The notes under the pieces are model-generated. The model saw only the letters and a program-made list of their open reading frames with translations, made no database searches and was not told the DNA's origin. From the NCBI GenBank assembly GCA_030445865.1, contig JASUSV010000010.1, forward strand, positions 1-46,189: a DNA stretch of 46,189 bases, given 5' to 3'. Made by a program: the position numbers and the translations under genes. Positions 9,857-42,781 of this stretch are shown piece by piece. Each line of letters begins with the position of its first letter. Within the stretch, counting starts at the first letter, position 1. Source of the DNA: Clostridia bacterium (GTDB taxonomy: Bacteria; Bacillota; DSM-521; Neomoorellales; Neomoorellaceae).

Positions 9857-9867
9857 GCTGGCTGGAC

Positions 9868-9960: not shown

Positions 9961-9990
9961 TTAACAAGGACATATACAAAAAAGTATAAA
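9961..9990 (+). promoter_or_regulatory. Candidate promoter of the antiporter operon
   Basis: TTAACA (9961-9966) and TATAAA (9985-9990) are 18 bp apart in an AT-rich stretch after the leuS hairpin. It lies about 105 bp before the first antiporter gene. No competing candidate is as good in the 200-bp gap. Confidence 0.5.
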
Positions 9991-10008
9991 CGTTATTTAT
10001 GAGTCATA

Positions 10009-10078: not shown

Positions 10079-10094
10079 GGGGTGGATATTCTTA

Positions 10095-10667: not shown

Positions 10668-10703
10668 CCGCTCTACACTAAAAAAGAAGATTGGGGAGTT
10701 GCT

Positions 10704-11271: not shown

Positions 11272-11277
11272 GGGATA

Positions 11278-12242: not shown

Positions 12243-12246
12243 CGCC

Positions 12247-21327: not shown

Positions 21328-23568
21328 TTGGCGACGACCATAGGCATACCCAGAGGCCTGGCTTATTACTACCTCTATCCTTTTATGGAGGGTTTTCTGC
21401 GCCATCTCGGTTTGGAAGTCGTTGTATCTCCTCCCTCGGACAGCCGTACCTTTAAAGATATGGCCTGCTGTCCCACAGACGAGCCCTGCGTATCGGTAAA
21501 ACTCTTTTTTGCCCACGCCAAGTATCTTTTAGACAAAGGCGTTGATTACCTATTCCTGCCCGTGCTTTCCAGCGTGGAACCCCAGAATTATTGCTGTCCC
21601 AAGCTTATAGGCGCGGCGGCCATGGTGCAGAACGGCTTTAACCTACCGCCGGAGCGCGTTTTAGCTCCCGAGATCAATGAGCGCGAAAAACCGGGCGCCT
21701 GGCGGGATAATTTTATTGCCGTAGCGGCCCGCCTGGGCAAAAGCCGTAAGGCGGCCCTGGAGGCCCTGGAAAGGGGTTTGGCCCGGCAGCAGGATTATTA
21801 CCGGCTGGTGCAGCAGGAGGGCCTGACCCTGCCGGAGGCTTACCGCCGCCTTGTGGGTTCTCCGGAACTTAAGAGGCGCGTTTTTGACACCCAGGCCCAG
21901 TTTGATCCGGAGCAGGTTATAGGGGTGATGGGGCATCCCTATATCCTTTATGACCTGGTGGGGCATAATGTGGTGGAGCGGCTGCGGGAATACGGCAGGG
22001 TCATCACCCCGGAGATGGTTAACCCGGAAGATTCCCGGCCGGAGCTGGCCAGCATTTACGAGGGTGAGAAGATGTGGGCTTACGAGGGCCGTCTTTTAAG
22101 CGCCGCCCTTTATTTATTGCGGCGGCACCTGGTAAACAAGATGGTTTTAATGGAGGCTTTTGAGTGCGGCCCGGCTTCTATCATTGAAGCTTACATAGAA
22201 GCGGAGGCCGAGCGCCAGGGTATTCCTTTCTTGATCCTGACGGTGGACGAGCATACGGGCGAAGCCGGCCTAGTAACTCGCCTTGAGGCCTTCGTCGATA
22301 CGGCTGCCGGCCATAAGTATGGGCAAAAAATAGCAGAACGGGCAGTAGAGGCGAAATCGGCCGGACAGGGTATATCGCTAACGGGCAACCTGGCTGCTGC
22401 CGTTCCCGGCCCGCGGCCGGCGAAGATTAAGGTGGGCGCACCTTCTATGGGCTGGACCGATGTAGCCCTGGTCACGGTCCTACAAGAGTGCGGCGTGGAA
22501 ATGGTGCCGGCGCCGCCGGTGACTAAAAGAACGGCGGAGCTGGGCAAGGAGCTGGCGCCGGAATTTATCTGCTACCCTATGGTGACCACCCTGGGCCAGA
22601 TCCGGGAAGTTCTGGAGGCCGGAGCCGATACCATTATTATGGTGGGGGGCAAAGGCCGCTGCCGTTTAGGCTGGTATGCCCAGTTGCAGGAGCTACTGCT
22701 ACGGCAGAAGGGCTATGATTTTAATTTAACCATCATCGATTCTCCTGTCCCCTGGCGCCAGAACTGGCCGAAATTTAGGGACGCCGTCAGGCCGGTTATC
22801 GGCAATGTTTCCTGGTTGAAGGTTATAGGGGCCTTATACTTGGCCTACCAGAAAATGCGGGCCATTGACGAGATCGAAAGTCTGGTTCGCCGCAAGCGGG
22901 CTTACGAAGTAAAGCGCGGCGCGGCCGACAAACTCGGCCGGCGTTTTATCCGCCGTCTCGAGGGCTTAAGCAGTACCAAAGAGATCAAAAAGCTCCTCAA
23001 AGAATTTCACGAGGAACTGGCGGCCATAGAAGAAGAAGATACGGCACCGCTAAAGATTAAAGTGGTGGGTGAGATATACGCTGTCCTGGAGAATTTTGTC
23101 AACCATGACCTGGAACGTTTTCTGGCCTCGCGTCCCGGCTTGAGGGTTTATGTCCGACGCGAGATGTCGGCCAAGGGGTGGTTTGACCTGCACGTTTTAC
23201 ATAAGAAGCAGGCCGTACGTCATTACCATCGAGTTCTGGCCGCCGCGCAGCCGTACCTGCCTTATGCGGTAGGCGGCCACGGCCAGGAAAGTGTGGGCGA
23301 AACTATCCTGGCGAAAGAAGAAGGTTTTGACGGTGTGATCCACCTTTTACCTTTTACCTGCATGCCGGAAATCGTGGCTCAAAATATTTTAGTGCCTCTC
23401 TGTGAAAAAATAGATATGCCTTTTCTTTCTCTCGTCTTGAGCGAGCAGACGGGAACGGCCGGGTTGGAGACGCGGCTGGAGGCCTTTTTAGAAGTTTTGC
23501 TGGAGCGCAGGGAGAGAAAAGAGCGACTTTTTGGAGGTGAAGCGGTTGGACTGCTTCCTGGGTATTGA
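21328..23568 (+). CDS. Tandem-domain acyl-CoA dehydratase activase-related protein (DUF2229-like)
   Basis: This 746-residue protein has two homologous halves. The first (about 1-350) starts GIPRGLAYYYLYPFMEGFL, has ACCPTDEPCVSVKLF and NYCCPK cysteines, and ends with DEHTGEAGLVTRLEAF. The second (about 365-746) starts KVGAPSMGWTDVALV and ends with SEQTGTAGLETRLEAF. Both match the CoA-activase-related DUF2229/2-hydroxyglutaryl-CoA dehydratase fold that is usually encoded by two separate genes. A basic helical linker (about 515-575) separates the conserved blocks. The true substrate is unknown. TTG start behind AAGAGGTGA. The next gene, an activator ATPase, overlaps its end by 23 bp. Confidence 0.82.
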   Translation: MATTIGIPRGLAYYYLYPFMEGFLRHLGLEVVVSPPSDSRTFKDMACCPTDEPCVSVKLFFAHAKYLLDKGVDYLFLPVLSSVEPQNYCCPKLIGAAAMVQNGFNLPPERVLAPEINEREKPGAWRDNFIAVAARLGKSRKAALEALERGLARQQDYYRLVQQEGLTLPEAYRRLVGSPELKRRVFDTQAQFDPEQVIGVMGHPYILYDLVGHNVVERLREYGRVITPEMVNPEDSRPELASIYEGEKMWAYEGRLLSAALYLLRRHLVNKMVLMEAFECGPASIIEAYIEAEAERQGIPFLILTVDEHTGEAGLVTRLEAFVDTAAGHKYGQKIAERAVEAKSAGQGISLTGNLAAAVPGPRPAKIKVGAPSMGWTDVALVTVLQECGVEMVPAPPVTKRTAELGKELAPEFICYPMVTTLGQIREVLEAGADTIIMVGGKGRCRLGWYAQLQELLLRQKGYDFNLTIIDSPVPWRQNWPKFRDAVRPVIGNVSWLKVIGALYLAYQKMRAIDEIESLVRRKRAYEVKRGAADKLGRRFIRRLEGLSSTKEIKKLLKEFHEELAAIEEEDTAPLKIKVVGEIYAVLENFVNHDLERFLASRPGLRVYVRREMSAKGWFDLHVLHKKQAVRHYHRVLAAAQPYLPYAVGGHGQESVGETILAKEEGFDGVIHLLPFTCMPEIVAQNILVPLCEKIDMPFLSLVLSEQTGTAGLETRLEAFLEVLLERRERKERLFGGEAVGLLPGY

Positions 23569-24565
23569 TGTAGGTAGTGTCAGCACCAAATTGGTAGTCG
23601 TAAATGAATCCAAGGAGTTGATTTTTGAAACTTACCTCAGAACTCACGGTGGCCCCATTGAGGCGCTGCAGTTAGGTTTCCGGCAATTAAAAGACGAAGT
23701 AGGAGACCTCAATATCCGGGCCGTAGGTACCACAGGTTCGGGCCGGCACCTGGCGGCCGTCATGGTGGGTGCCGATACTATTAAAAACGAGATCACGGCT
23801 CATGCCGTGGCAGCGCGGGAAGTGGAGCCGGAGGTGCGCACGGTCATCGATATAGGCGGGCAGGATTCTAAGATCATTTTTCTTAAAGACGGCGTTACTA
23901 CCGGATTTAATATGAATAGCGTCTGCGCTGCCGGGACGGGCTCTTTTCTCGACCACCAGGCCAGCCGGCTAAACATTCCCATTGAGGAATTTGGCGAAAT
24001 GGCCCTGCGTTCCAAAAGCCCGGTACGTATTGCCGGCCGCTGTGGGGTTTTTGCCGAATCCGATCTGATCAGCAAACAGCAAATGGGTTATAAAAAAGAG
24101 GATTTGATTGCCGGTTTGTGCCTGGCCCTGGCGCGTAATTACCTGACCAACGTGGCCAGGGGGAAGGAAATAAGGCCGGTAGTACTCTTCCAGGGCGGCG
24201 TGGCGGCTAACGTGGGCTTGAAGGCCGCCTTCGAAACCCTTTTAGGCCTGCCTATTATTGTGCCGCCCCATTTCCGGGTTATGGGTGCCCTGGGAGCGGC
24301 CCTCCTGGCGCGAGAGCGGTGGCAAAAGAGCCGACAACCGAGCCGTTTCCGGGGGCTAAAGGCTATTGCCGATTTTCGTTATACTCCTCGCAGTTTTATC
24401 TGTGGCGACTGCGCCAACGACTGCGAGATCAGCGAGCTTTACATTGACGGCCAACTGGCTGGCAGGTGGGGCAGCAGGTGCGGCAAATGGTCCAATTTGC
24501 GCCTGTCTTCTGCCCAGCGGGAAGACGAACGCGAAAATATCGTATTGTTGCGTACGGTAGTTTAG
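23546..24565 (+). CDS. BcrAD/BadFG-type ATPase (dehydratase activator-like)
   Basis: A 339-residue ASKHA-fold ATPase. Phosphate loops are GIDVGSVSTKLVVV and VIDIGGQDSKIIFL. The two cysteines that usually ligate the bridging [4Fe-4S] cluster are seen in SVCAAGTGSF and GRCGVFAESD. A C-terminal extension of about 75 residues adds a cysteine-rich motif (CGDCANDCE and a later SRCGKW), absent from short activators such as the one at 35.8 kb. TTG 23546 is chosen because GGAGGTGA lies just upstream; TTG 23531 precedes that site. It probably energises electron transfer to its overlapping partner or another dehydratase-like protein. Confidence 0.88.
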   Translation: MDCFLGIDVGSVSTKLVVVNESKELIFETYLRTHGGPIEALQLGFRQLKDEVGDLNIRAVGTTGSGRHLAAVMVGADTIKNEITAHAVAAREVEPEVRTVIDIGGQDSKIIFLKDGVTTGFNMNSVCAAGTGSFLDHQASRLNIPIEEFGEMALRSKSPVRIAGRCGVFAESDLISKQQMGYKKEDLIAGLCLALARNYLTNVARGKEIRPVVLFQGGVAANVGLKAAFETLLGLPIIVPPHFRVMGALGAALLARERWQKSRQPSRFRGLKAIADFRYTPRSFICGDCANDCEISELYIDGQLAGRWGSRCGKWSNLRLSSAQREDERENIVLLRTVV

Positions 24566-25283: not shown

Positions 25284-28200
25284 ATGAAGTTTGTGGCCGA
25301 TCTCCACTTTCACTCCCATTACTCCCGGGCGACAAGCCAAGACGCCCGCCCGGAGAACCTTTACCGGTGGGCGGTTTATAAAGGCGTTACCCTGGTGGGG
25401 ACCGGCGATTTCACCCACCCGGAGTGGCGGGAAGAACTGAAAGATAAGCTGGAGCCAGCCGAAGAGGGGCTTTATCGCCTTAAAGAGGAATTCCGCCGGT
25501 TGGCCGAAGAATCCCAGGAGCCGGGGACCAGGTTGGCCGGCCTCTGGAGCGTCGAGTCCCCTTATATCCACCTGGATTCTTCCGGTAGGCCCCTGGTGCG
25601 CTTTATCGTTTCGGGCGAAATTAGCGCCATATATAAAAAGGGAGGAAAAGTCAGGAAGATCCACCACCTCGTGTTCTTTCCCAGTTTTGAGGCTGCGGAT
25701 GAGTTCAGCCGCCGTTTAGAAGGCATCGGGAATATCCGCTCCGACGGCCGGCCTATCGTCGGCCTGGATAGCCGTTACCTTCTGGAGATGGCCCTGGAGG
25801 TATGTTCCGAGGCGCTTTTTATTCCGGCCCATATCTGGACCCCGCACTTTTCCCTCTTTGGAGCTAATTCGGGGTTTGACAGCATGGAAGAATGTTTTGG
25901 GGATCTGGCGGATTATATTTATGCCGTTGAGACCGGTCTCTCCTCAGATCCGCCCATGAACTGGCGCTTATCCAGCCTGGATCGCTTTGTCTTGGTTTCT
26001 AACTCCGATGCCCATTCGCCCAGGAATCTGGCTCGGGAGGCCAACCTTTTTGACACGGATCTTTCTTATTCCGCCATCTACAAAGCATTGAAAGATCGCG
26101 ACCCTGCCCGTTTCCTGGGAACACTGGAGTTCTTTCCCGAGGAGGGTAAATATCACTACGATGGGCACCGGGGCTGCAATATCCGGTGGAAGCCCTCCCA
26201 GACACGAGCCGCGGGCGGGATTTGCCCTGTCTGCGGGCGGAAGGTAACCGTGGGCGTGCTCCATCGGGTGGAGGAACTGGCCGACCGGGAAGAAGGCTAC
26301 CGGCCTAAAGGAGCCCGTCATTTTGAAAGCTTAGTCCCCCTTCCCGAAGTAATTGCTTCCGCTCTTGGCGTCGGGGTATCTTCTCGACAAGTTATGCGGC
26401 GCTATTTCTCCCTTATCCACAAATTGGGCCCAGAACTGGTAGTTTTACGCGAGGCGCCCCTTGGAGAAATTGCCCGGGTAGGTGGGGCGCCGGTGGCCGA
26501 GGCCGTCCGGCGGGTGAGGGAAGGTGAGGTAGAGGTTTTGCCGGGATTTGATGGGGAGTACGGCAAGATAATATTATTACGTCCCCAAGAACGGCAGGGT
26601 TTCTTCCAGCAGGCCACCTTGTTTGGAGAGACCAAAAAGGGCGCGGCTTCTCCGGAGATCGCGGCAACGGCGGCACCGCCTCTTTCAATGGTTGCAGGGG
26701 AGGCAACGGCTGTTCCTTCTAAGGTCAAAGAAGCGCCCCTCCGGCAACCTGCACCGGAAGACGAGGGGGTTCTCGCCGGCCTTAATCCGGGGCAATGGGA
26801 GGCCGTTACCGCGGAAAACGGCCCTATTATGGTAATTGCCGGGCCGGGTACGGGCAAGACCCGCACTTTAGTTTACCGTATCGCCTATCTTATCGGGGAA
26901 AGGGGCGTAGCCCCGCAACACATTACTGCCGTTACCTTTACCAATAAAGCCGCCTCCGAGATTCGCGATCGCGTAATGGAGCTCCTGGGCGATATTCATG
27001 GAATCGAATTTTTGACTATCGGCACCTTCCACAGTATTTGTCTTGACGTGCTTAAGAATCATGCGGCGCAAAATCAGTCCCGCCTCACCGTTCTCGACGA
27101 GGCGGACTGCCGGGAAATTCTCAAAGAGATTTTACAGGGAGCCGGCAAGTCCAGGCCCCAAAACGTACTGGAAATCCAGAGAAGGATTTCTTTTCTTAAA
27201 AGCCGCGGCCTCCTCCCGTCTTATCCCGGAGTCCCCGAAGATTTGCGCCCCATTTTTCTGGCCTACCAGGAGCGCCTTTTGTACTATCGAGCTCTGGACT
27301 ACGATGATATTCTCCTGGAGTCAGCCCGAGTATTTGAAAAGGCTACAAGCGCTTTAACCCGGTTTACCCACCTGTTGGTGGACGAATTCCAGGACGTTAA
27401 CCCTCTACAGTATACACTGGTCAAATTATGGGCCCGGGAGGGAAATAATCTTTTCGTCATAGGCGATCCCAACCAGGCTATTTACGGATTTCGCGGCGCC
27501 GACCACCGGTTTTTTTGGCAGCTCAAAAAAGACTTTCCGCAAGGGCGCTTTCTCTATCTCTCCCAAAATTACCGCTCCACCCCCGTCATTCTCCGCGCAG
27601 CCTCGGCCGTAGTAGCTAATAACCCGGAGGACAAGCTTTTACCGGTACAAAAGAGCGAGCTGGTTGCTACTAAGAGAGACGGACCCAGAATTCAGCACCT
27701 GGAGGTCCCGGACGAGTTTTACGAGGGCATGGCGGTTGTTGGGGAGATCGTCCGTATGGTCGGCGGCACCACCATGTTGCAGGCCCACGGGCAGGGCAGG
27801 AAGGCAATTGGAAAAGGCTCGCAGGTCAGGGAGCGGGTCTGGAGCTTTTCGGATATAGCCGTCCTCTTCCGGACGGGCCGTCAGGGCGAGACGTTGGAAG
27901 AATGTTTTCTCAAGGAAGGAATACCTTACCGGGTGGTGGGCCGGGAAAGCTTTCTAGAAGACCGGGCCGTGCGGGAAACCCTGGCCTTTTTCCGGTGTGT
28001 GGTAGACCCGGAAGACGATTTCCACCTCTTCCGCTGCCTGTCCGGGGGAAGTTTCGGCCTGAGCCCGGAAGGCGTAGCTCTGGTCCAGGATGCGGTTGAG
28101 CAGTTGGGGGGCCCGGCCTGGAGGGCTATTGCCGAATTAACTGGAGGCGGGCCATCGCCAGGGCCGGCAGCTTTTAAGAAGCTGCTTGCCTTTAAAACTG

Positions 28201-28772
28201 CCATAGAGACTTACAGGTCCTTAATGGGATCGGAGCCCCCCGACCGCCTCTTGGCCCGCTGGATAGAGGAAAACAACCTCGGGGAAATGGAAGCAATGAA
28301 ACGTCTTGTAAGGGTTGCTTCGCGTTTCAACGATCTCCCCTCTTTCATGCGCGGGATCGTCCTGGCCCAGGAGGCGGACCACGAGCGCATGGGAAGCAAC
28401 GCCACTTCTCCCGAGGCAGTAACCCTTATGACTTTGCATGCCGCCAAGGGGCTGGAGTTCCCCGTGGTTTTTATCACCGGCGTTGAAGATGGGCTAATAC
28501 CTCTTCGGGATCGCGAAAACCCCTCGCCGGCCGAGGATGCCCTGGCAGAAGAACGCCGGCTCTTCTATGTCGGTATGACCCGCGCTATGGAGGAGCTTAT
28601 CCTGGTGTCCGCCCGGAAGCGAATGCGATTTGGAGAGAAAGTACCCGGCAAACCCTCCCCGTTTATTCGGGAGATCCCCCAGGAGTGCCTGGAAAGCGTT
28701 TTCTGGGAAGCCCGACCGGGAAGAAAAAAGGGGGGCGGAGGGGAAAAATATACGCAGCTCACCCTGTTTTAA
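25284..28772 (+). CDS. PHP-domain (EndoQ-like) nuclease fused to UvrD/Rep helicase
   Basis: A 1162-residue two-part protein. Residues 1-~420 form a PHP domain of the EndoQ/TIGR00375 type: metal ligands in DLHFHSHYS (Asp6, His8, His10, His12), GTGDFTHPEW, SNSDAHSPRN, plus a zinc finger with Cys298 and CPVC (Cys314, Cys317). Stand-alone EndoQ nicks DNA 5' of deaminated bases. Residues ~500-1160 are a complete SF1A helicase: Walker A AGPGTGKT (519-526), DEFQD, GDPNQAIYGFRGA, TLHAAKGLEFP and YVGMTRA. The fusion links lesion nicking to unwinding. A Gly/Ala/Pro-rich linker joins them. ATG at 25284; the upstream Nudix gene is probably co-transcribed. Confidence 0.92.
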   Translation: MKFVADLHFHSHYSRATSQDARPENLYRWAVYKGVTLVGTGDFTHPEWREELKDKLEPAEEGLYRLKEEFRRLAEESQEPGTRLAGLWSVESPYIHLDSSGRPLVRFIVSGEISAIYKKGGKVRKIHHLVFFPSFEAADEFSRRLEGIGNIRSDGRPIVGLDSRYLLEMALEVCSEALFIPAHIWTPHFSLFGANSGFDSMEECFGDLADYIYAVETGLSSDPPMNWRLSSLDRFVLVSNSDAHSPRNLAREANLFDTDLSYSAIYKALKDRDPARFLGTLEFFPEEGKYHYDGHRGCNIRWKPSQTRAAGGICPVCGRKVTVGVLHRVEELADREEGYRPKGARHFESLVPLPEVIASALGVGVSSRQVMRRYFSLIHKLGPELVVLREAPLGEIARVGGAPVAEAVRRVREGEVEVLPGFDGEYGKIILLRPQERQGFFQQATLFGETKKGAASPEIAATAAPPLSMVAGEATAVPSKVKEAPLRQPAPEDEGVLAGLNPGQWEAVTAENGPIMVIAGPGTGKTRTLVYRIAYLIGERGVAPQHITAVTFTNKAASEIRDRVMELLGDIHGIEFLTIGTFHSICLDVLKNHAAQNQSRLTVLDEADCREILKEILQGAGKSRPQNVLEIQRRISFLKSRGLLPSYPGVPEDLRPIFLAYQERLLYYRALDYDDILLESARVFEKATSALTRFTHLLVDEFQDVNPLQYTLVKLWAREGNNLFVIGDPNQAIYGFRGADHRFFWQLKKDFPQGRFLYLSQNYRSTPVILRAASAVVANNPEDKLLPVQKSELVATKRDGPRIQHLEVPDEFYEGMAVVGEIVRMVGGTTMLQAHGQGRKAIGKGSQVRERVWSFSDIAVLFRTGRQGETLEECFLKEGIPYRVVGRESFLEDRAVRETLAFFRCVVDPEDDFHLFRCLSGGSFGLSPEGVALVQDAVEQLGGPAWRAIAELTGGGPSPGPAAFKKLLAFKTAIETYRSLMGSEPPDRLLARWIEENNLGEMEAMKRLVRVASRFNDLPSFMRGIVLAQEADHERMGSNATSPEAVTLMTLHAAKGLEFPVVFITGVEDGLIPLRDRENPSPAEDALAEERRLFYVGMTRAMEELILVSARKRMRFGEKVPGKPSPFIREIPQECLESVFWEARPGRKKGGGGEKYTQLTLF

Positions 28773-30790: not shown

Positions 30791-33208
30791 ATGCGCCAGC
30801 GCCCGCTTGTTTCAATGAGTATAGCCTTTATAACCGGCCTCATTTTAGCCCGCTGGATGAATTTGCCTCTCCTGCTGACAGCTACTTTAATTGTATTTCT
30901 TTTTGCTGTTCCCCTTTTCTTATTGCCCAGGGCTTGCCGGACGACCCGATATTATTTTTTTCTAACCGCCTTTTTAACTTTAGGCCTTTTTTGGGCTACC
31001 TGGGACAACGAACGTCACCAGAGCCAACTATTAAGTGATTTAAACACTTTTCTTGATATTACTGGAGTTGTAGTGGAGGAGCCCAAAATCTACCCCAACC
31101 GGGTCCTCTACACCCTGGAGGTAAAAGAGATAAGGCAGGGGAATTACCGGCGTAAAGTAAAAGAAAAGGTAGAGGTAGTACAGTATTATCCCAAGCAAGC
31201 GAAAAATAAAACTAATCCGGAAAAGCAACAACCTTTCTACCACTACGGCGACATCTTAAAGATCCACGGCCAGTTAAAACTCCCTCCCCAGGCCCGCAAC
31301 CCCGGTGAGTTCGATTACCGCGCCTATCTCGCTCGCCGCTATATCTATACCCGCATGGCCGTAGAGGACCCCCTGGCAATATCGAAGATAGGTAGTGTCG
31401 TTGGCAACCCCCTCAGGCGCCTGGCCCTGAGCGCTAAGGGCAAGGTTGCGGCGGCTATAACTCGGGCTTTGCCGCCGAGGGAAGCCGCTGTCCTGCAGGC
31501 CCTTCTTTTTGGAGACAAGGAGCAGCTCGATGAAAACGATGTAGAAGCCTTCCAAAACCTGGGTATAATGCACCTTCTGGCCGTGAGCGGGTCGAATGTT
31601 GGCTTCGTTTTGCTTTTGGTTATGACTGTAGCCGGCCTCTTGGGTTTGGGGCGTGGCGCCGCCGTAATGCTGGGGCTGGGCGGCCTTTTCTTTTACGCCG
31701 CCCTCTGCGGTTTTACGTCTTCGGTAACGCGGGCCTCGATTATGGCCGGCTTGGGACTTCTGGCTTACCGGGAAAGGGAGCGCCGCGATTTTTATACCGC
31801 CCTGGCGCTGGCTGCCCTATTCATTTTGTTCTTCAACCCCAGGTCCTTGTATGAGAGCGGCTTTCAACTTTCCTTTGTGGCCACATGGGGCATCGTCTAT
31901 TTTTACCCGCTCTTCGACGGTTTGCTGGCGCGTTTACCTTCATGGCGCTCCTATTTAGCAGCCGCTCTGGCCGCTCAGCTGGCCGTCTTGCCGCTCCAGG
32001 TTTATTATTTTAACCTCATCCCTTGCCTGGGCCTGCCGGTAAACATTATAACCTTAGGCCTGGCGGGGGTATTGGTTATCACCGGCCTGGCCGCTTCTGT
32101 CCTGGTCCTGTTGTTTCCGCCCTTGGCCTACCCATTGCTCCTGGCTGCTGGGGTTATAATTCATTTTCTGCTGGCGCTTTTGAGTAAAATGGCCTCCCTT
32201 CCGGGCGCAGTTTTATCCGTGGGTACGCCGGGACCGGCCTTAATTTTGGGTTATTATATCCTGGCTGCCGCCTTTCGCGAAATTTACCTGCATAGACAAG
32301 AGCCGCGGCTTCTGTGGTTCTGGCGCTGGCAGGGCCAGAAGGTTGTACTGTTGGGTCTAACCGCCGCCGCTCTTTTTCTCTGGCTGCCCCGGCAGGGTCG
32401 AGATGATTTTAAAATCGTGTTCCTGGATGTGGGCCAGGGGGATGCCATATACATCCATACCCCCAGGGGTAAAAATATCCTGGTTGACGGAGGCGGCCGG
32501 CCTTATAACCCGGATTCCAATTTTGATGTCGGCGAAGATATTGTGGTGCCTTTTTTAAGGCGCCAGGGAGTGCGGCGGTTGGATCTGGTGGTAAGCACCC
32601 ATCCCGATGCCGATCACCTGGGTGGCCTGGCGGCCGTTATACGGCAGTTGCCTGTTTCCCTGGTGATTACCCCGCCGCCGGGGGCCATGTTCCCCGATTA
32701 TAAAGATTTTTTAGTGGAGGTAGCTGCGAGAAAGATTAATTGGGCTGTAGCCGGCCGGGGGGATAAGGTGGTTATCGACCCTGATCTGGAAATTTTAGTC
32801 CTGCACCCCGGCAGGGAAATAAAGGGGAGCCGGGCGGATGGCAACAATAATTCCCTGGTCCTGCGTTTGGGGCACGGCAGAAATACTTTTCTTTTGGCGG
32901 GCGACATTGAAACCGAAGCCATGGCCGATCTGGTAGCGACCGATTTACCCCTGCGGAGTACCGTTTTCAAAGTACCTCACCACGGCAGCCGTTACGGCCT
33001 GAAGGAGGATTTTTTGGCGGCCGTTGATCCCGAGGCGGTAATTATTTCCGCAGGGGCCGACAATAATTTCGGGCACCCTGCACCGGAGATCCTGGCCTAC
33101 TGGCAAAGAGAGGGGGCGAAAATTTACCGTACCGATCGCCAGGGGGCCATAACTATAACCAGCGACGGGGAAAGCTGGCAGGTAAAGCCCTTTATCAGCC
33201 CGAAATAA
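30791..33208 (+). CDS. comEC: DNA internalisation channel ComEC/Rec2
   Basis: This 805-residue polytopic protein has N-terminal helices and a DUF4131/OB region (about residues 1-200), then the competence domain with many helices (about 220-520; GIMHLLAVSGSNVGFVLLL, TSSVTRASIMAGLGLL), and a C-terminal metallo-beta-lactamase-like domain (about 540-800) with DVGQGDAIYI, LVDGG and the metal-site motif HPDADH (604-609). ComEC moves single-stranded DNA across the membrane during transformation and receives it from ComEA. The ATG at 30791 has a poor ribosome binding site; a start a few codons later is possible. Confidence 0.95.
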   Translation: MRQRPLVSMSIAFITGLILARWMNLPLLLTATLIVFLFAVPLFLLPRACRTTRYYFFLTAFLTLGLFWATWDNERHQSQLLSDLNTFLDITGVVVEEPKIYPNRVLYTLEVKEIRQGNYRRKVKEKVEVVQYYPKQAKNKTNPEKQQPFYHYGDILKIHGQLKLPPQARNPGEFDYRAYLARRYIYTRMAVEDPLAISKIGSVVGNPLRRLALSAKGKVAAAITRALPPREAAVLQALLFGDKEQLDENDVEAFQNLGIMHLLAVSGSNVGFVLLLVMTVAGLLGLGRGAAVMLGLGGLFFYAALCGFTSSVTRASIMAGLGLLAYRERERRDFYTALALAALFILFFNPRSLYESGFQLSFVATWGIVYFYPLFDGLLARLPSWRSYLAAALAAQLAVLPLQVYYFNLIPCLGLPVNIITLGLAGVLVITGLAASVLVLLFPPLAYPLLLAAGVIIHFLLALLSKMASLPGAVLSVGTPGPALILGYYILAAAFREIYLHRQEPRLLWFWRWQGQKVVLLGLTAAALFLWLPRQGRDDFKIVFLDVGQGDAIYIHTPRGKNILVDGGGRPYNPDSNFDVGEDIVVPFLRRQGVRRLDLVVSTHPDADHLGGLAAVIRQLPVSLVITPPPGAMFPDYKDFLVEVAARKINWAVAGRGDKVVIDPDLEILVLHPGREIKGSRADGNNNSLVLRLGHGRNTFLLAGDIETEAMADLVATDLPLRSTVFKVPHHGSRYGLKEDFLAAVDPEAVIISAGADNNFGHPAPEILAYWQREGAKIYRTDRQGAITITSDGESWQVKPFISPK

Positions 33209-33398: not shown

Positions 33399-35756
33399 GT
33401 GCGCCTAGCCCTCAACTGCAGCTACTTGCCGCCTGAGATACCTTATGCTTTAGGCCTGGAACCTTTCCGACCTTGGGGTGCCGGGGAGGACCTGGCCGGG
33501 GGCGAAGCTTATTTGCCCCGTGACTACTGCCCCTATGCTAAAGCCCTGGTAGGCAGTTTCTCGAGCCAAAATATGAAGGAAAGCCGGAAAAACTGTATAG
33601 GGCTGGCTGCCGCTCTCTGTTGTGATCCCATGCGCCGGGCCGCGGATGTGGTAAATTTTTATCGCCTTGCTCCCCGGGTTTTCCCGGTAGAAGTGCCCAG
33701 GTTGACGGGCAGCACGGAAATAGCTTATTTCCGAACGCAGCTGGCCTCCTGGCAGGCGGAACTGGCCTGCGCCTTGGGGGTGGAGCTCGATCAGGAGGCC
33801 CTGCGCCGTTCCATTTGGGAATACAATGCCTGGAGGCGCCTCTGTAAGCGCTTAAGTTTTTCTGGCAGTAGTTGGTTGGATTTACTAACGGCTACCAGCC
33901 TTTTGCCGGAAAAACCTTCGTTTCCCGACAGGGAAATAGGCGGCGCCTTTTCCGATACCCGGCCCCGCCTGCTTCTGGGAAGCACCTGCCTTTTAGATGC
34001 CGGCTTGGTCGAACTGATAGAGAGCTGCGGCGCCAGAGTGGTAGGCGTAGATTCCTGTTTCGGCGAGCGGACCTGGAACTTTGAAGTGGCCGAAGACGGC
34101 GACCCTTTGACGGCGCTGGCGGCGTCCTATTTAAGGCGTCCTCCTTGCCCCCGGAGCCAGAATATCCCTGAGCGCCGGGCCTGGCTTCAGAATTTGCTGG
34201 AAGGGCGCCGGGCGGAAGGCCTGATCTGGTTTATACCCAAGTTCTGCGATCACGCTCTTTACGAAGCCGCCTGGCTGCGCCAGAACATGGCCGGTTGGCC
34301 GCTGCTGGTTATCGAGGGAGAATACGGCGCCGGCCGCCAGGGGCAGGTGCGCACGCGCGTAGAGGCGTTTATAGAACAATTGGAATGGTTTCGGGAGCAG
34401 GCAGGGAGAAAAAGCCGCGACCGGCAGGGAAATAAGCGGGCTCCGGTTAGCTGGCCTGCCCGGAAAAAAGCGGTCCGGATCTTCCCGGGGCGCCAGGCAG
34501 CTGATCTTTCGTCTCCTGCCTTGCGTACGGCCCTGCGGACAGGGCCGTTTTACGCCGCGGCCGGGACGCTAGTTAAGTGGCGAAAACCCAAATGGGCTTG
34601 CCGCCACGAACGGTCCGGCGTTGCCCTAGCCCTGGAGTTAACGCGCCAGGCCTATCAGAGGCGCCGGCCGGTGATCTGGGCCAGTGTTTACGTGCCCACG
34701 GAGCTTATCTACGGCCTGGGAGGCGTACCTTTCATGCCCGAGGTGGCTGCCGCCTTTGGGGCTTCTTTGAAGCGCGCTCCAGCCATGTTGGCTGCGGCGG
34801 AGTCTGCCTGGTACTTGAGCGACCTTTGCAGCTTTCACCGCTGCGCCTGCGGGATGGCTTTAAAGGGTTTTCTTCCCCGGCCTGACGCCGTTCTGGCCTC
34901 GGAATCCCTCTGCGATGGGGCTAAGCGATTCCTGCAGCAGCTGGCCGAGCGTTACGGCGCTCCTTTTTACCTGTTGGAAGTTCCTTATGAAGAAAGCGAG
35001 GGGACTTACAAGCAGCTCGCGGCCCGTCTGGAAGGAGTTGCCCGGAATCTAATCGATCGCTCAAAAGGGCGCCTGAAGCTTGACGGCCTGCCTGAAGCTA
35101 TAGAGCTTTCCAACCGGGCGCGCGCCGCTTATTTGGAAGCCTGCCGCTGGCGCCGGGCGGCGCCGGCACCCTGGTCCGGGAGCCGGGCTTTAAATTACCT
35201 GGCCTTCTTTTTCCTGGCCTTTGGCTCGCCACGGTTGGTAGATTTTTATGAGGATCTGGCCGCCGACCTGGCAGAAAGGGTGGAGGCCGGTTATGCCGCC
35301 GTACCCGGTGAAAAATACCGCCTCCTCTGGCTGCACATGCGGCCCTATTACGGCAGCGAGCTCTTTAATTTTTTAGAAGGAGAGAAGAAGGCGGCCCTGG
35401 CCTTTGAGGAGTATAATTACCTATACTGGCCCGAGCTTGACCCCAACCGGCCTTTTTTAAGCCTGGCCAGAAAGATGCTGGCCCATCCTGGCTGGGGTCC
35501 GGTGGAGCGCCGCCTGGCCTCAATTTTAGAAATGTGCAGGACGTACCGGGTAGAGGGCGTCGTCCACTTCGGCCAGTGGGGATGCCGGCAGACCAACGGC
35601 GGCGTCCGGGTTATCAAAGACGGCCTGGCCGCCGCCGACATACCCTTCCTTAATCTGGACGGCGACAGCATCGATAGCCGTAACTTTTTGGCAGAACAGG
35701 CCCGAACCCGCCTGGAAGCTTTTCTGGAACTTATAGATTTTAAGCGGGGGAAGTGA
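33399..35756 (+). CDS. Tandem-domain 2-hydroxyacyl-CoA dehydratase-like protein
   Basis: A 785-residue protein with two HgdB/HgdD-like halves. The first (about 1-340) has YCPYAKALVGSF, LCCDPMRRAADVVNFYRL and ends GQVRTRVEAFIEQLEWF. The second (about 395-785) has IWASVYVPTELIYGLGGVPF, SDLCSFHRCACGMAL, HFGQWGCRQTNGGVRV and ends ARTRLEAFLELIDF. These are cysteine positions and motifs of the [4Fe-4S] dehydratase subunits that remove water from 2-hydroxyacyl-CoA, but the halves are normally separate proteins. GTG start behind AAGAGGGA. The next gene is a BcrAD-type activator. The substrate cannot be inferred; an unusual two-electron reductase is equally possible. Confidence 0.82.
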   Translation: MRLALNCSYLPPEIPYALGLEPFRPWGAGEDLAGGEAYLPRDYCPYAKALVGSFSSQNMKESRKNCIGLAAALCCDPMRRAADVVNFYRLAPRVFPVEVPRLTGSTEIAYFRTQLASWQAELACALGVELDQEALRRSIWEYNAWRRLCKRLSFSGSSWLDLLTATSLLPEKPSFPDREIGGAFSDTRPRLLLGSTCLLDAGLVELIESCGARVVGVDSCFGERTWNFEVAEDGDPLTALAASYLRRPPCPRSQNIPERRAWLQNLLEGRRAEGLIWFIPKFCDHALYEAAWLRQNMAGWPLLVIEGEYGAGRQGQVRTRVEAFIEQLEWFREQAGRKSRDRQGNKRAPVSWPARKKAVRIFPGRQAADLSSPALRTALRTGPFYAAAGTLVKWRKPKWACRHERSGVALALELTRQAYQRRRPVIWASVYVPTELIYGLGGVPFMPEVAAAFGASLKRAPAMLAAAESAWYLSDLCSFHRCACGMALKGFLPRPDAVLASESLCDGAKRFLQQLAERYGAPFYLLEVPYEESEGTYKQLAARLEGVARNLIDRSKGRLKLDGLPEAIELSNRARAAYLEACRWRRAAPAPWSGSRALNYLAFFFLAFGSPRLVDFYEDLAADLAERVEAGYAAVPGEKYRLLWLHMRPYYGSELFNFLEGEKKAALAFEEYNYLYWPELDPNRPFLSLARKMLAHPGWGPVERRLASILEMCRTYRVEGVVHFGQWGCRQTNGGVRVIKDGLAAADIPFLNLDGDSIDSRNFLAEQARTRLEAFLELIDFKRGK

Positions 35757-35758
35757 GT

Positions 35759-36535
35759 ATGTTGGCTGTTGCCGGTATCGATATTGGCTCGGCGACCACC
35801 AAAGCGGTGATTTTAGAGGGGAACAAAATCTTAGCCTTCCACCTGGAGCCTACCGGGGCCAATGCCAAAGAGACCGGGGACCGGGCCTTGGCGTTCGCCC
35901 TGCAGGAGGCTGGGATCGACCTTGCAGACCTGGGGGCTATTGTGGCCACCGGTTACGGCCGCATCAGCGTCCCCTTTGCCCGGCGGCGCGTAACTGAGAT
36001 TACCTGTCACGGTCGCGGCGCCTCTGCCCTTTTCCCCGCCACGCGTACGGTGATCGATATCGGCGGCCAGGACAGCAAAGTAATCCGCCTGGACGCCGGC
36101 GGTATGGTGAGCGACTTTATTATGAATGATAAATGCGCTGCCGGCACCGGCCGTTTTCTTGAAGTTATGGCCGGGGTCCTGGAGATAAGAGTGGCGGATT
36201 TGGGCGCATTAGCTTTGAAAGCTAGAAGGGGAGCGGCTATTTCCAGCACCTGCACCGTGTTTGCCGAATCCGAAGTCGTGGGCTTGATCGCCAGAGGTTG
36301 TCCGAAAGAAGAGATTGCCCTAGGGCTTTGCGAGGCGGTAGCGGCCAGGCTGGAAGGCATGGTGCGCCGCGTCGGCCTTGAAGGAGAAGTAATGCTGACG
36401 GGGGGCGTGGCCCTAAATGAAGGTGTGCGCCGGGCCCTGGAGCGCCGCCTAGGGGTAAAACTCCGGGTGCCGCCTCAGCCGCAATTGGTAGGCGCCTACG
36501 GTGCCGCCCTCCTGGCGCGCGATCTGAATGCTTAA
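35759..36535 (+). CDS. 2-hydroxyacyl-CoA dehydratase activator-like ATPase
   Basis: This 258-residue short BcrAD/BadFG ATPase, of HgdC/activator length, has GIDIGSATTKAVIL, VIDIGGQDSKVIRL, DKCAAGTGRFLEVMA and SSTCTVFAESEVVGL, including the two cluster-ligating cysteines, then LTGGVALNEGVRRALE. ATG 35759 has a better-spaced GCGGGGGA than the GTG at 35753. It is placed 2 bp after the tandem dehydratase-like gene and so is presumably its ATP-driven electron donor. Confidence 0.92.
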   Translation: MLAVAGIDIGSATTKAVILEGNKILAFHLEPTGANAKETGDRALAFALQEAGIDLADLGAIVATGYGRISVPFARRRVTEITCHGRGASALFPATRTVIDIGGQDSKVIRLDAGGMVSDFIMNDKCAAGTGRFLEVMAGVLEIRVADLGALALKARRGAAISSTCTVFAESEVVGLIARGCPKEEIALGLCEAVAARLEGMVRRVGLEGEVMLTGGVALNEGVRRALERRLGVKLRVPPQPQLVGAYGAALLARDLNA

Positions 36536-36549: not shown

Positions 36550-37575
36550 ATGTCCTGGTCCCAGCTGGAAAAAACTCTTAAAGGCGGTCGCTTCGCTCCT
36601 GTCTACCTTTTTTACGGGCAGAATGACTACCTTATGGAGCGGGCGGTTAAAACCCTGCGCTCCAGGTTATTGGGTGGCGAATTTACATCCCTGGATTACC
36701 AGGAGCTTGATGGCCGGGAAGTTGGCGCGGAGGAGATATGCGAATTTGCTTCTACTATGCCTATGATGGCTGAAGTTCGCCTGGTAGTAGTGAAAGAGCC
36801 CCCTTTTTTTCAAAAAAACATCAAAGAATCCGAAAGAAGGGCCCTGCTCGCCTATTTAGAAGCGCCCGCGCCGACCGCCTGCTTGGTTTTTGTTGTCAGC
36901 GGCCAAGTGAATAAACAGGAAAAACTGATCCAGGCCATCGCCCGGGCGGGAGAGGTTATCGAGTTTTCCCGATTGAAAGAAGAGGAGTTTAACGCCATCC
37001 TTAAAAAGGAAGCGGCCAGATATGGCCGCAAAATTAATCCCCAGGCTTTAATTTTATTGGCCCAGGCTTGCAACTTTGACCTGCGCCTGGCCCTTCAGGA
37101 ACTGGAAAAACTCGATCTTTACCTGGAACCCGGCCAAGAAATAACGGTCCAGGTGGTTAGTAAAAATATTCCTGGTGTCCTGGCGGAAAATGCCATCTTT
37201 AGGCTGGTTGACGCCCTTGGTTCCAGGAAGCCGGCAGCGGCTGTTAAATATTTACGGGAATTACTATTAAACAACGAAGCGCCTTTAAGTATCCTGGGGA
37301 TGATCGGGCGCCAGATGCGCCTCATTTTCTTTAGCAAAATACTGGTGGAACAGGGTTATAGCGGTGACAACCTGGCTGCAACTTTAGGAGTCCCTGCCTT
37401 TGTGGCCCGCAAAATTGTCCACCAGGGGACTAGCTTTTCTTTAGGCGAACTCAGGCAAATTTTTGATTTTTTATTAACAACGGACCTGGCTCTGAAGAGC
37501 GGCGCCGGCGATCCCGGTCTTTTATTAGAGCAGGCTATCTGGCATATTTGCTCTAAAATTAAGGGAGCAGGTTGA
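36550..37575 (+). CDS. holA: DNA polymerase III delta subunit
   Basis: This 341-residue clamp-loader delta subunit has APVYLFYGQNDYLMERAV at the N-terminus, a central AAA+-like region without a P-loop, and the C-terminal collar domain with EAPLSILGMIGRQMRLIF. It opens the beta clamp during loading. ATG at 36550 behind GGTGGGAGG. comEC-holA-rpsT is a conserved Firmicutes order; here the tandem dehydratase pair is inserted between comEC and holA. Confidence 0.95.
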   Translation: MSWSQLEKTLKGGRFAPVYLFYGQNDYLMERAVKTLRSRLLGGEFTSLDYQELDGREVGAEEICEFASTMPMMAEVRLVVVKEPPFFQKNIKESERRALLAYLEAPAPTACLVFVVSGQVNKQEKLIQAIARAGEVIEFSRLKEEEFNAILKKEAARYGRKINPQALILLAQACNFDLRLALQELEKLDLYLEPGQEITVQVVSKNIPGVLAENAIFRLVDALGSRKPAAAVKYLRELLLNNEAPLSILGMIGRQMRLIFFSKILVEQGYSGDNLAATLGVPAFVARKIVHQGTSFSLGELRQIFDFLLTTDLALKSGAGDPGLLLEQAIWHICSKIKGAG

Positions 37576-38985: not shown

Positions 38986-41900
38986 GTGGAGTATATCCCT
39001 CAGGATTATCCGGACCGGATCAGGCGGCTGCGGGCCAAATTGGGCTTGAGCCAGAAGCGCCTCGCGGAACTTCTGGGCGTCTCCTTTGCGTCCGTCAACC
39101 GGTGGGAGAACGGGCAGACACGCCCCAACCGCCTGGCGTGGGGTCAGATCTTACGCCTTGAAATAGATGGTCTCGAGGGGTTACTTAAACCGCCGCTCAC
39201 CGGCAACAGCAGTCAGTTAGCCGGCGCACTATTTGCGGCCGAAGACAAAGCGGCCTACCGGCTGTCCGACGAGCCGCCGGAGCCGCATGAGCCGGACAAG
39301 GTCGATTTCACCGCCCCGCCGGAGATCGTCCGCCTGGCCGTCGAAGCCGAGCGTTTAACTTACGGCCACCTTTTCAGCCCGGCCTTTGCCACCGAAACCT
39401 CACTGATTGACCCGTTGCCACACCAGCGCATCGCCGTGTATGACCATATGCTTCCCCAGCCTAGGCTGCGGTTTTTGCTGGCCGATGATGCCGGTGCCGG
39501 CAAGACCATTATGACCGGTCTCTATATCCGCGAGATGCTCACCCGGCGGCTGATCCGGCGTGTCCTAATCGTACCGCCTGCAGGCCTGGTTGGGAACTGG
39601 CAAAGGGAAATGCGAACACTCTTCAGCCTTCCGTTTAAAATAGTGACCGGCGCGGATGCGCGCGTTGGCAACCCCTTCACCGGGCCGGAAAGCGACCTGG
39701 TTATCGTCAGCGTGGACACGCTCTGTAGCACGCAAACCTTTGCCCGTCTCCGCGAGTCCGGCGTGGAGCCCTACGATCTGGTTGTTTTCGATGAGGCGCA
39801 TAAGCTGGCGGCCGACCGCAATCCCGACTTCACCGTCCGGAAGACCGACCGCTACCGCCTGGCCGAAGCGATCGCGGGAGCCTCGGACGACCCCGACTGG
39901 GTGCTACCCTGGCGGTGCCACCACCTGCTCCTCCTCACCGCCACGCCCCATATGGGCAAAGACTTCCCCTACTTCTGCCTGTGGCGGCTGCTGGAACCGG
40001 AGATACTCTCCACTATAGACGCCTTCAACGCCTATCCGGCGGAGGCGCGGCGGCGCCATTTCCTCCGGCGAACCAAAGAAGAAATGGTGCGGTTTGACGG
40101 CACGCCGATTTATCCGAAAAGGGAATCCCGCACGTTGAGCTATGACCTGGGACCTGCCGAGCAGCGGCTCTACGACGAGACTACCAGTTACATCCGGACC
40201 TATTATAATCGCGCCCGGATTCTCAACCGTTCGGCCGCCCGCCTGGCCATGAGCATCTTCCAGCGCCGGCTGGCGAGTTCCACGTGGGCTCTGTTGCGGT
40301 CTCTCGAGCGGCGGCTGGAAAAATTGGACGGGCTGATCGAGGATATTAGGAGCGGCCGGCTTACGGAGGAACAGCTTACCGCCTACCAGCGGAAGGTAGA
40401 CAAAACGGTCGATATTTTTGACCGGATGACCGCCGACGAAGAGGAGCCGCAGGAGGGCCACGAGCAAAACGAGGTGGTTGAGGACCAGGCCCTAAAAGGG
40501 GTGGTCGCCACTTCCCTATCCGAGCTTCAAGCTGAGCGGATGCAGGTTGAGGACCTGCTTGGCCTGGCGCGGCGGGTGTTTGCGTCCGGCGAGGAGGCGA
40601 AGTTCGAAAAACTGCGCGAGGTGGTGCAGGACGAGCGTTTCAAGGACGAAAAGATCCTGATTTTCACCGAGCACCGGGATACTCTCGATTTCCTGATCCG
40701 GCGCCTGGAAGGCCTGGGCTATACGGGAAGGGTTGCCGCTATCCACGGCGGCATGGACTACCAGGAACGCGAGGCGCAGGTGGCCTTCTTCAAGCGGCCG
40801 GCTAGGGAAGGCGGCGCGAACCTGATGGTCGCCACCGATGCTGCCGGGGAGGGGATTAACCTCCAGTTCTGCTGGTTGATGGTGAATTACGACATTCCCT
40901 GGAACCCGGCGCGACTTGAGCAGCGGATGGGACGCGTCCACCGCTACAAGCAGATGCACGACCCGGTGCTGATCTTCAACCTGGTGGCGGGGAAAACCCG
41001 GGAGGGCAAGGTGCTTAAAACGCTGCTCGAGAAATTAGAGCAGATCCGTCGCGAACTCGGGTCGGATAAGGTTTTCGACGTTATCGGAATGCAATTCGAA
41101 GGAGTTTCGCTAAAAGAGTTAATTCTGCAGGCGGTGGTGGACGAGCAGAGCGATGAGGCCGTCCGGCAGGTTGAGGGTCGCCTTACGCCGGAACAGGTCA
41201 AGGCGCGGCTGGCGCAGCGGGAAAAGCTTCTCGGTGCCGGCGGGGATATTGCCCTTCAGTTACCTGAACAACGGGCCAAATTGGAGCGCGAAACGTTTCG
41301 GCGGCTGCTGCCGGGATATGTCCGCCGCTTTATCGAGAAATCGGCACCGCTTTTAGATATCGGCATTGACGGCGATCTGGAGGGCTATTTCTCCTTCAGG
41401 CCCCTCCGACCGGGGGCGCTTGACCCCTTATGGCCCGTCCTGGAAAGTTACGACCCCGCAAGGTGGGAGCGGTTGACCGTTTATAAGCCGCCCGAGGGCG
41501 AGCAGGCGGTCTTCCTGCACCCTGGTGAACCGCTCTTTGACCGTTACTGTTCGCTGGTGCGCGGCCGGTTCGCGGCTCCGGCGCGAAAGGGCGGCGTTTT
41601 TGTTGATCCTTATGCGGAGCGCCCCTACCTTTTCCACGTGGTACTGGTCAGGATTATGCGGCGGGCTGATCCGGCGCTGCCCGAGGTTTTTGGCCGGGAA
41701 GAACTGGTGGAGTCGCGTTTGGTGGCGTTGCGGCAGGACGAGACCGGGAAAATCGAGGAGTGCGCGGTGGAGCACCTTATGTTATTGCGCGGCGCGCCAA
41801 CAATCCCCGCGGCGGCTATCCCTCTTGTTTCCACGATCGCCGCTGCCTGCGAGCAGGCGAAAAACTTTGTTGTGGAGCGGATTGCCGAACCACTTGCCGC

Positions 41901-42606
41901 GGCCCGCAGGCAGGCACTGCTCAATACCCTGGCCGGGCGGGAGGAGTTTATCCTCCGGGGTTACGCTTACCAGGAAGCAGAACTCGCCTTGAAACGGACC
42001 CGCCTTTCCGAGCGGGCCAACGCGGGCGATGCGGCGGCCCAGGGTGAACTGACGAAGGTTAAGAAGCAGCAGCGGGAACTCGCCGACCGGATCGAGCGAT
42101 CTCTGGCGGTGCTGCGGCGGGAGCCGGAACTGATCGTTCCGGGCGAGGTCCACTTTTTGGCGCACGCTTTAGTGGTGCCCTCTTATGATCCGGAAGACAG
42201 GGCGCGTTACGACCGGGAGATCGAACGGATCGCCGTCCGGGTGGCCTGGGGCTACGAGGAGAGCCGCGGCTGTACCGTCCGGGATGTTTCCGCCCCGGAA
42301 CTTGCCATACGTGCCGGCCTGGAGGCCTACCCCGGTTTCGATCTTTTGTCGCGCCACCCCGGTGGCGAGGAGCGCGCCATCGAGGTCAAGGGTCGGGCCG
42401 GCATCGGCGACATAGAACTTTCGGAGAACGAATGGGCCAGGGCCTGCAACCTGCGAGACCGCTACTGGCTCTATGTCGTCTACGACTGCGCCGGCGCCCA
42501 CCCGCGCCTTTTGCGCATCCAGGACCCTTTCGGGAAACTGCTGGCGCGGCGTAAAGGCGGCGTGGTGATAGGGGAACAGGAGGTCTTCGCAGCAGCGGAA
42601 GAATAG
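38986..42606 (+). CDS. XRE-SNF2 helicase-DUF3883 defence protein (DrmD-like?)
   Basis: A 1206-residue protein. Residues ~8-60 are an XRE-type HTH (LSQKRLAELLGVSFASVNRW). A SNF2/RapA-like SF2 motor follows: Walker A DDAGAGKT (167-174), DEAH (269-272), LTATPHMGKD, and the second RecA lobe with IFTEHRDTLDFLIRRL, TDAAGEGINLQF and QRMGRVHR (646-653). The C-terminus carries a DUF3883-type domain with Asp1119 in GFDLLS and IEVKG (Glu1133, Lys1135), a D...ExK layout. GTG 38986 follows AATGGAGGAC. SNF2-DUF3883 helicases occur in DISARM class 1 (DrmD) and related defence loci. The HTH suggests sequence-specific DNA binding or autoregulation. The partner is the DUF1156 methyltransferase. Confidence 0.85.
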   Translation: MEYIPQDYPDRIRRLRAKLGLSQKRLAELLGVSFASVNRWENGQTRPNRLAWGQILRLEIDGLEGLLKPPLTGNSSQLAGALFAAEDKAAYRLSDEPPEPHEPDKVDFTAPPEIVRLAVEAERLTYGHLFSPAFATETSLIDPLPHQRIAVYDHMLPQPRLRFLLADDAGAGKTIMTGLYIREMLTRRLIRRVLIVPPAGLVGNWQREMRTLFSLPFKIVTGADARVGNPFTGPESDLVIVSVDTLCSTQTFARLRESGVEPYDLVVFDEAHKLAADRNPDFTVRKTDRYRLAEAIAGASDDPDWVLPWRCHHLLLLTATPHMGKDFPYFCLWRLLEPEILSTIDAFNAYPAEARRRHFLRRTKEEMVRFDGTPIYPKRESRTLSYDLGPAEQRLYDETTSYIRTYYNRARILNRSAARLAMSIFQRRLASSTWALLRSLERRLEKLDGLIEDIRSGRLTEEQLTAYQRKVDKTVDIFDRMTADEEEPQEGHEQNEVVEDQALKGVVATSLSELQAERMQVEDLLGLARRVFASGEEAKFEKLREVVQDERFKDEKILIFTEHRDTLDFLIRRLEGLGYTGRVAAIHGGMDYQEREAQVAFFKRPAREGGANLMVATDAAGEGINLQFCWLMVNYDIPWNPARLEQRMGRVHRYKQMHDPVLIFNLVAGKTREGKVLKTLLEKLEQIRRELGSDKVFDVIGMQFEGVSLKELILQAVVDEQSDEAVRQVEGRLTPEQVKARLAQREKLLGAGGDIALQLPEQRAKLERETFRRLLPGYVRRFIEKSAPLLDIGIDGDLEGYFSFRPLRPGALDPLWPVLESYDPARWERLTVYKPPEGEQAVFLHPGEPLFDRYCSLVRGRFAAPARKGGVFVDPYAERPYLFHVVLVRIMRRADPALPEVFGREELVESRLVALRQDETGKIEECAVEHLMLLRGAPTIPAAAIPLVSTIAAACEQAKNFVVERIAEPLAAARRQALLNTLAGREEFILRGYAYQEAELALKRTRLSERANAGDAAAQGELTKVKKQQRELADRIERSLAVLRREPELIVPGEVHFLAHALVVPSYDPEDRARYDREIERIAVRVAWGYEESRGCTVRDVSAPELAIRAGLEAYPGFDLLSRHPGGEERAIEVKGRAGIGDIELSENEWARACNLRDRYWLYVVYDCAGAHPRLLRIQDPFGKLLARRKGGVVIGEQEVFAAAEE

Positions 42607-42614
42607 ATTTGTCT

Positions 42615-42667
42615 GGAGGGATGTGACGTGGCTGAAGGGAATGAAAAGCGAGGATTCGAAATCCTCG
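42615..42667 (+). pseudogene. tRNA-Ser(CGA)-like 5' fragment
   Basis: The sequence GGAGGGATG, then GTGGCTGAAGGGA, then a stem-loop CGAGGA-TTCGAAA-TCCTCG resembles the acceptor 5' strand, D-arm and anticodon arm of a serine tRNA (anticodon CGA in a 7-nt loop at 42655-42661). The D-stem 5' side is altered, about 8 extra bases precede the anticodon stem, and no T-arm or 3' acceptor strand follows, so it would be a truncated pseudo-tRNA. An alternative reading is a 20-codon ORF (GTG 42628 to TAG 42690) with GGAGGG upstream. It lies just after the helicase stop. Confidence 0.4.
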
Positions 42668-42781
42668 GGCACACGAACACAGATACTTAGATGAGCCATT
42701 TGTTGCCTTAGAAATGCTAGTATGGGCTAATCATTTAATACGGATAGTGAAAATGTCCAAGCGAACACGGAGGAAGTAATC

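Follow-up and report, generated by a model that had tools for sequence, protein, structure and literature searches.

Gene organization of the locus

The window, by which we mean the whole 46,189-nucleotide stretch of DNA analyzed, carries a gene for a 785-residue protein followed by a gene for a 260-residue activator ATPase (Table 1). A sequence-only reading had described them as a double HgdB-like protein and a short activator, and the open reading frame positions and both family matches agree with that description. Pfam HGD-D (PF06050) matched the larger protein in two stretches (431.7 bits; cut-off, 28.4), and no Pfam family other than HGD-D was found in it. The smaller protein belongs to BcrAD_BadFG (220 bits in Pfam) and scored 288.3 bits against the acyl-CoA dehydratase activase model TIGR00241, whose cut-off is 125.4; its PDB matches were HgdC (1hux), HadI (4eht), and MbdQ (9gai). 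Its Cys128 and Cys167 were kept in 65 of 65 orthologues covering both sites and are presumably the cluster cysteines, a role that we take over from established knowledge of HgdC. The reductase and activator genes overlap by 4 bases, which suggests translational coupling. Three activators in the window genome scored above the cut-off, each beside its own HGD-D gene.

Table 1. Features of the fused reductase system and other genes in the window
Feature	Position	Strand	Basis
Fused reductase, 785 aa: N (predicted double-cubane) domain, linker, C (predicted catalytic) domain	33399..35756	+	ORF, GTG start; two HGD-D stretches
N domain, residues ~1-335, BzdN/DCCP-like	33399..34403	+	Profile alignment, six Cys, fold match
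N-domain Cys7, Cys44, Cys75, Cys220, Cys250, Cys283	33417, 33528, 33621, 34056, 34146, 34245		
Basic linker, residues ~336-365	34404..34493	+	Open in frame; not present as such in separate-gene orthologues
C domain, residues ~366-785, HadB/BzdO-like	34494..35753	+	Conserved residues, fold match
C-domain Cys477, Cys505, Cys729	34827, 34911, 35583		
C-domain Glu448	34740		
C-domain Phe479	34833		
Activator ATPase, 260 aa, BcrAD_BadFG/HgdC type	35753..36535	+	GTG start; TIGR00241
Activator Cys128, Cys167	36134, 36251		Places of cluster Cys in homodimeric activators
Flanking ComEC/Rec2, outside the system	30791..33208	+	TIGR00361, 277.5 bits
Flanking DNA polymerase III delta subunit (holA), outside the system	36550..37575	+	TIGR01128, 285 bits
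Other module, outside the system: 746-aa DUF2229/HGD-D protein and 344-aa activator, PlsA/Ger-like group (suggested)	21328..24565	+	PF09989, 175 bits; distribution

Elsewhere in the window, two large genes at 38986-45988 match the Hma defense system (an HmaA-like SNF2/DEAD helicase, 565 bits, and an HmaB-like adenine methylase, 388 bits), which may extend past the window end. At 25284-28772, a 1162-aa protein combines an N-terminal TIGR00375 match (178 bits) with a UvrD/PcrA-like helicase half. The same genome also holds a third, single-HGD-D system beside RNase PH (locus L058, G000:C12, 9157-11770), made up of an Asp/Glu racemase, a 324-aa HGD-D protein, and a 267-aa activator.

Predicted double-cubane ligands in the N half

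The [8Fe-9S] cluster of BzdN is held by Cys36, Cys73, Cys100, Cys263, Cys293, and Cys327 (PMC11971306). In a profile alignment, all six pair with cysteines of the N half (Cys7, Cys44, Cys75, Cys220, Cys250, and Cys283, respectively), as do all six double-cubane cysteines of DCCP, and each of the six N-half cysteines was present in 83 or 84 of 86 orthologues. A pairwise search had offered Cys66 as the equivalent of BzdN Cys100; family conservation and the profile alignment both give Cys75. HadC lacks a cysteine at two of these six positions and MbdN at three. The N-family profile gave full-length matches to BzdN (218 bits) and DCCP (217 bits). When the N and C halves were modeled separately with AlphaFold, the N-half model (mean pLDDT, 88.5) had two nearest folds of equal rank, those of DCCP (Z 37.3) and BzdN (Z 36.9).

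Catalytic site and binding pocket of the C half

The C half resembles the dehydratase HadB as closely as the reductase BzdO: the C-family profile scored best against BzdO (164 bits) and HadB (158 bits), and the C-half model (mean pLDDT, 92.9) was nearest in fold to HadB (Z 43.4) and BzdO (Z 39.8). Cys477, Cys505, and Cys729 match BzdO Cys95, Cys128, and Cys380, and Glu448 matches both BzdO Glu65 and the HadB Glu in the same place, with each of these residues present in 90 of 90 orthologues. A MAFFT alignment showed a gap in BzdO at Glu448 that stems from a BzdO sequence pieced together from alignments; the profile alignment pairs Glu65 with Glu448. None of the three second-cubane cysteines is conserved in the C half across the 90 orthologues. 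With these ligand patterns, we consider it very probable that the N domain binds an [8Fe-9S] double cubane and the C domain a [4Fe-4S] cluster.

The pocket around this predicted cluster differs from those of the characterized enzymes. BzdO holds the thioester oxygen of its substrate with Tyr97, Tyr298, and Gln274 (PMC11971306). A comparison of 18 HAD/BCR alpha subunits, three of them characterized, showed tyrosine at the Tyr97 and Tyr298 positions in every one. In the C family, the Tyr97 position is phenylalanine in 85 of 90 members (Phe479 in the window), and the Tyr298 position is mixed (23 Phe, 22 Met, 12 Tyr, and 10 Ile), the window protein keeping Tyr672. The BzdO His131 position is alanine or glycine, such that BzdO C128-C-S-H131 corresponds to C505-D-G-A508 in the window, and the BzdO Trp46 position is aromatic in 88 of 90. 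Residues W644, P649, R730-Q731, E670-E671, and H480 are specific to the family and invariant or nearly so. Since the thioester tyrosines are mostly replaced while these family-specific residues are retained, the pattern argues for a substrate class that differs from the HAD/BCR substrates. The substrate is probably neither an ordinary aryl- or 2-hydroxyacyl-CoA nor bound like the usual acyl-CoA.

A separate clade, and a fusion within it

In trees built with characterized references, a single branch (SH-aLRT 81) separated the C orthologues from HadB/HadC, BzdO/BzdN, MbdO/MbdN, and DCCP, and the separation of the N orthologues was almost complete. As judged from these trees, the N and C families form a clade of their own. 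The NCBIfam equivalog scores of the window protein were all far below cut-off, and these scores, together with the separate clade, speak against orthology to a characterized 2-hydroxyacyl-CoA dehydratase, as the sequence-only reading had expected. We found no biochemistry for any clade member.

Related loci were collected from other members of the family and order of the window bacterium and from named genomes; in the named genomes, a single-sequence scan returned no loci and an alignment-based scan returned 80. At about 90 related loci, the N and C halves are separate neighboring genes, N coming first, and the activator gene is usually next; no second fused N-C case was found among them. These loci span Bacillota (including Moorella thermoacetica), Chloroflexota, Deltaproteobacteria, and Actinomycetota. 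The C family occurs in 15 of the 22 genomes of the class, where the window copy alone is part of an extended open frame (790 aa) and the others measure 425 to 450 aa. Across the phylum, it occurs in 24 of 199 genomes and is fused in one, with a gap in the phylum scan between orthologues (at least 454 bits) and the next relatives (at most 284 bits).

The 785-aa gene thus joins two genes that normally stand apart, with a residual chance of assembly error. We regard it as very unlikely that an error in assembly or sequencing removed a stop codon and so made one ORF out of two genes. Such an artefact would fit the fact that every other N-C pair found consists of separate genes, the weakness of the codon signal of the linker (which scores best in frame 0, but weakly), and an assembly of 90 contigs. 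Against it, the junction has one open frame encoding a basic linker of about 30 residues, with the other two frames closed nearby; some 80 codons pass without an in-frame stop; and the flanking segments match the N tail on one side and the C leader on the other without a change of frame. Moreover, residues 340 to 420 contain no ATG or GTG start for a separate C protein and only one TTG, which lacks a Shine-Dalgarno sequence. Both window halves group with the same lineages, namely, Fermentithermobacillaceae and other deep Bacillota, which indicates that one N-C pair was fused. They do not group with copies from other genomes of their own taxonomic family, and this tree placement points to horizontal transfer or replacement of the module.

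Several other loci show related arrangements. A separate-gene version in another genome (locus L051 of G018, 5628-12967) also lies between holA and comEC; because that copy has the opposite orientation and branches elsewhere in the tree, the module may have come to occupy this site on two separate occasions. In a sister family (L057, 6284-9183), a 542-aa ORF fuses the activator with an N-type HGD-D unit, and the C-type gene stands alone upstream of it; long ORFs at L027, L028, and L029 seem to be the same N-type/activator fusion, cut by the locus ends.

Relationship to the 21-24 kb module

The window contains another module at 21-24 kb, in which a DUF2229/HGD-D protein and an activator are split over two ORFs (21328-24565). 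It had been noted as not closely similar to the 785-aa system, and indeed BLASTP between the two large proteins gave a single weak match (30% over 70 aa, E 0.001). Pfam finds DUF2229, which we take to be a mark of the PlsA/Ger group, in the 746-aa protein and not in the 785-aa protein. This domain content suggests a PlsA/Ger-like identity for the 21-24 kb module. Both PlsA and Ger, lipid ester reductases from the BCR/HAD family, convert lipid ester bonds to (vinyl) ethers and do not act on acyl-CoA (PMC12838417, PMC13274423). By analogy, and given that placement, HGD-D/activator systems can act on non-CoA substrates, in line with the guess in the sequence-only reading.

The suggestion that the two modules are a related pair was not supported. 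The DUF2229 type is found in 181 of 199 phylum genomes, often as one protein of about 1440 aa, versus 24 of 199 for the 785-aa family, and the two are unlinked elsewhere. Co-occurrence, which had been proposed as a check, is uninformative, with DUF2229 present in 24 of 24 module genomes and in 157 of 175 others. The two modules are not partners.

Neighborhood and a candidate partner

Only the N, C, and activator genes are conserved side by side across lineages; the flanks are unrelated housekeeping genes that vary by lineage, and a pathway could not be read from them. The sequence-only reading had argued that the substrate is not an acyl-CoA because no CoA-transferase gene is adjacent. That reasoning is weak because nothing beyond the N-C-activator set is conserved nearby in any case; its conclusion nevertheless gains some independent support from the lost thioester-binding tyrosines.

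In 11 of 94 loci, a radical-SAM/SPASM protein of about 460 aa is encoded close to the module, at a distance of up to about 5 kb; its gene precedes the module in Syntrophomonadaceae and follows it in Deltaproteobacteria. Of the module genomes, 23 of 24 contained the protein, compared with 66 of 175 others (Fisher test by genome, p 2e-8), and at the family level, 8 of 8 module families did (p 0.003), in tests that ignore shared ancestry beyond the family level. These 66 genomes have the protein without the module, and the copies in the window genome are on other contigs (C72 and C2). We treat the radical-SAM/SPASM protein as a candidate partner of the module. Genes for it adjoin the module in several unrelated lineages, on either side, at L074 (7252-8643), L084 (11997-13508), L126 (8052-9536), and L059 (3160-4545).

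Other associations were considered and set aside. Identification of the radical-SAM protein as Mss (membrane-spanning lipid synthase) was dropped, its nearest PDB matches being SkfB and PqqE, with tetraether synthase not among the matches. Regarding the Wood-Ljungdahl pathway, CdhC occurs in 14 of 24 module genomes versus 50 of 175 others and not in the window genome, and it is not a required partner. DCCP showed no enrichment (9 of 24 module genomes versus 57 of 175 others).

Proposed enzyme and its alternatives

We propose, as the probable reading, that the fused gene and its activator encode an ATP-dependent, very-low-potential reductase, a one-chain form of a two-subunit enzyme of the BCR-I/HAD/DCCP superfamily, probably with a nonstandard substrate. 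The earlier view of an independent tandem HgdB-like and activator system, probably carrying out an ATP-driven low-potential reduction, is supported. In the enzyme as we infer it, with its cluster types, electron path, and net reduction, an activator dimer reduced by ferredoxin or flavodoxin would hydrolyze ATP to push single electrons into the N-domain [8Fe-9S] double cubane, which would store at least two of them and hand them to the C-domain [4Fe-4S]-OH2/OH cluster; Glu448 and the cluster-bound water would then reduce the substrate by radical (hydrogen-atom) steps. HADs need no net electrons and have lost the double cubane, whereas BzdNO needs two and has kept it (PMC11971306), and by this analogy, net reduction is the more likely chemistry. 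The likeness of the C half to a dehydratase, as close as that to a reductase, weighs against it.

The nearest known systems each share part of this architecture. BzdNO (PDB 8s02) likewise has two HGD-D units, the layout predicted here of [8Fe-9S] in N and three-Cys [4Fe-4S] in C, and the conserved active-site Glu and Trp; however, it consists of two chains, it is served by an activator pair (BzdP/BzdQ) rather than one adjacent activator gene, and its His131, Tyr97, and mostly Tyr298 are not kept in the window family. DCCP (PDB 6eno and 7yyl; NF040772) shares the six N-half cysteines, the top fold match, and a single activator but is a homodimer with a double cubane per subunit, whereas the window C half has three ligands only; the window protein scored 201 bits over three stretches against the NF040772 cut-off of 350, and no true DCCP was found in the window genome. 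The (R)-2-hydroxyisocaproyl-CoA dehydratase HadBC (PDB 3o3m) shares the HadB fold, the three cysteines, the Glu placement, and a HadI-like activator.

This last likeness raises the possibility of an ordinary 2-hydroxyacyl-CoA dehydratase (HadBC, HgdAB, or FldBC type), merely fused, acting in amino acid fermentation. The modeled HadB fold of the C half, the HadB-type Glu with no His at the BzdO His131 position, and the single activator, as in HAD systems, all fit such an enzyme. We nevertheless think it unlikely, given that NF052455 and NF052456 gave 77 and 46 bits against cut-offs of 750 and 700, that the N half has the full six-Cys set lost in HadC, that the protein lies outside the HadB and HadC clades with the thioester tyrosines mostly lost, and that no CoA-transferase or HAD pathway genes are conserved nearby. 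A new class I benzoyl-CoA-reductase-like enzyme performing Birch-type reduction of an aryl-CoA thioester would share the predicted cofactor set of BzdNO and the aromatic residue at the Trp46 position. In addition, a PaaK-like acyl-CoA ligase lies in the flank of five loci, four with IorA, including those of Thermanaeromonas relatives, G005, and the L108 region (downstream). Scores of 77.6 and 58.4 bits against TIGR03191 and TIGR03190 (cut-offs, 448.6 and 453.8), the replacement of His131 by Ala or Gly, of Tyr97, and mostly of Tyr298, the one activator gene in place of two, and the lack of aromatic degradation genes at most loci make this reading improbable.

The third alternative, a lipid ester reductase analogous to PlsA/Ger in plasmalogen or ether lipid synthesis, draws on the precedent for non-CoA substrates in these enzymes (PMC12838417, PMC13274423) and on the presence of the module in Moorella species, M. 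thermoacetica being reported to make iso-diabolic acid lipids (PMC13274423). PlsA/PlsR (plasmalogen synthase) and Ger (glycerol ester reductase) are, like the window protein, fused multidomain members of the BCR/HAD superfamily with an ATPase activator, and they act without CoA. However, the 785-aa protein lacks DUF2229 (PF09989), our marker for this group, the 746-aa DUF2229 protein encoded in that genome fits a PlsA/Ger-like role better, and the candidate radical-SAM partner has no PDB match to tetraether synthase, with no link to Mss found; a lipid reductase is accordingly quite doubtful.

Returning to the proposed one-chain reductase, a bolder extension, which we put forward tentatively, is that the family is a new class of double-cubane ATP-driven reductases, spread over several phyla of anaerobes, that act on a substrate not carried by CoA and form one chain in the window species. 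Such a substrate could be, for instance, a product, peptide, or cofactor linked to the co-occurring radical-SAM/SPASM protein. Cluster-ligand variants of BzdNO have been reported to be unstable (PMC11971306). A natural fusion sets the N:C ratio at 1:1 and could ease both expression and the making of single-cluster mutants.

In sum, the window gene belongs to a widespread clade of predicted double-cubane reductases, within which its fusion is apparently unique. To our knowledge, very few enzymes have a double-cubane cluster, namely, DCCP and BzdNO. The present clade would add a third, predicted case, occurring in cultured organisms such as Moorella thermoacetica and combining a Bzd-like cofactor layout with a different pocket.
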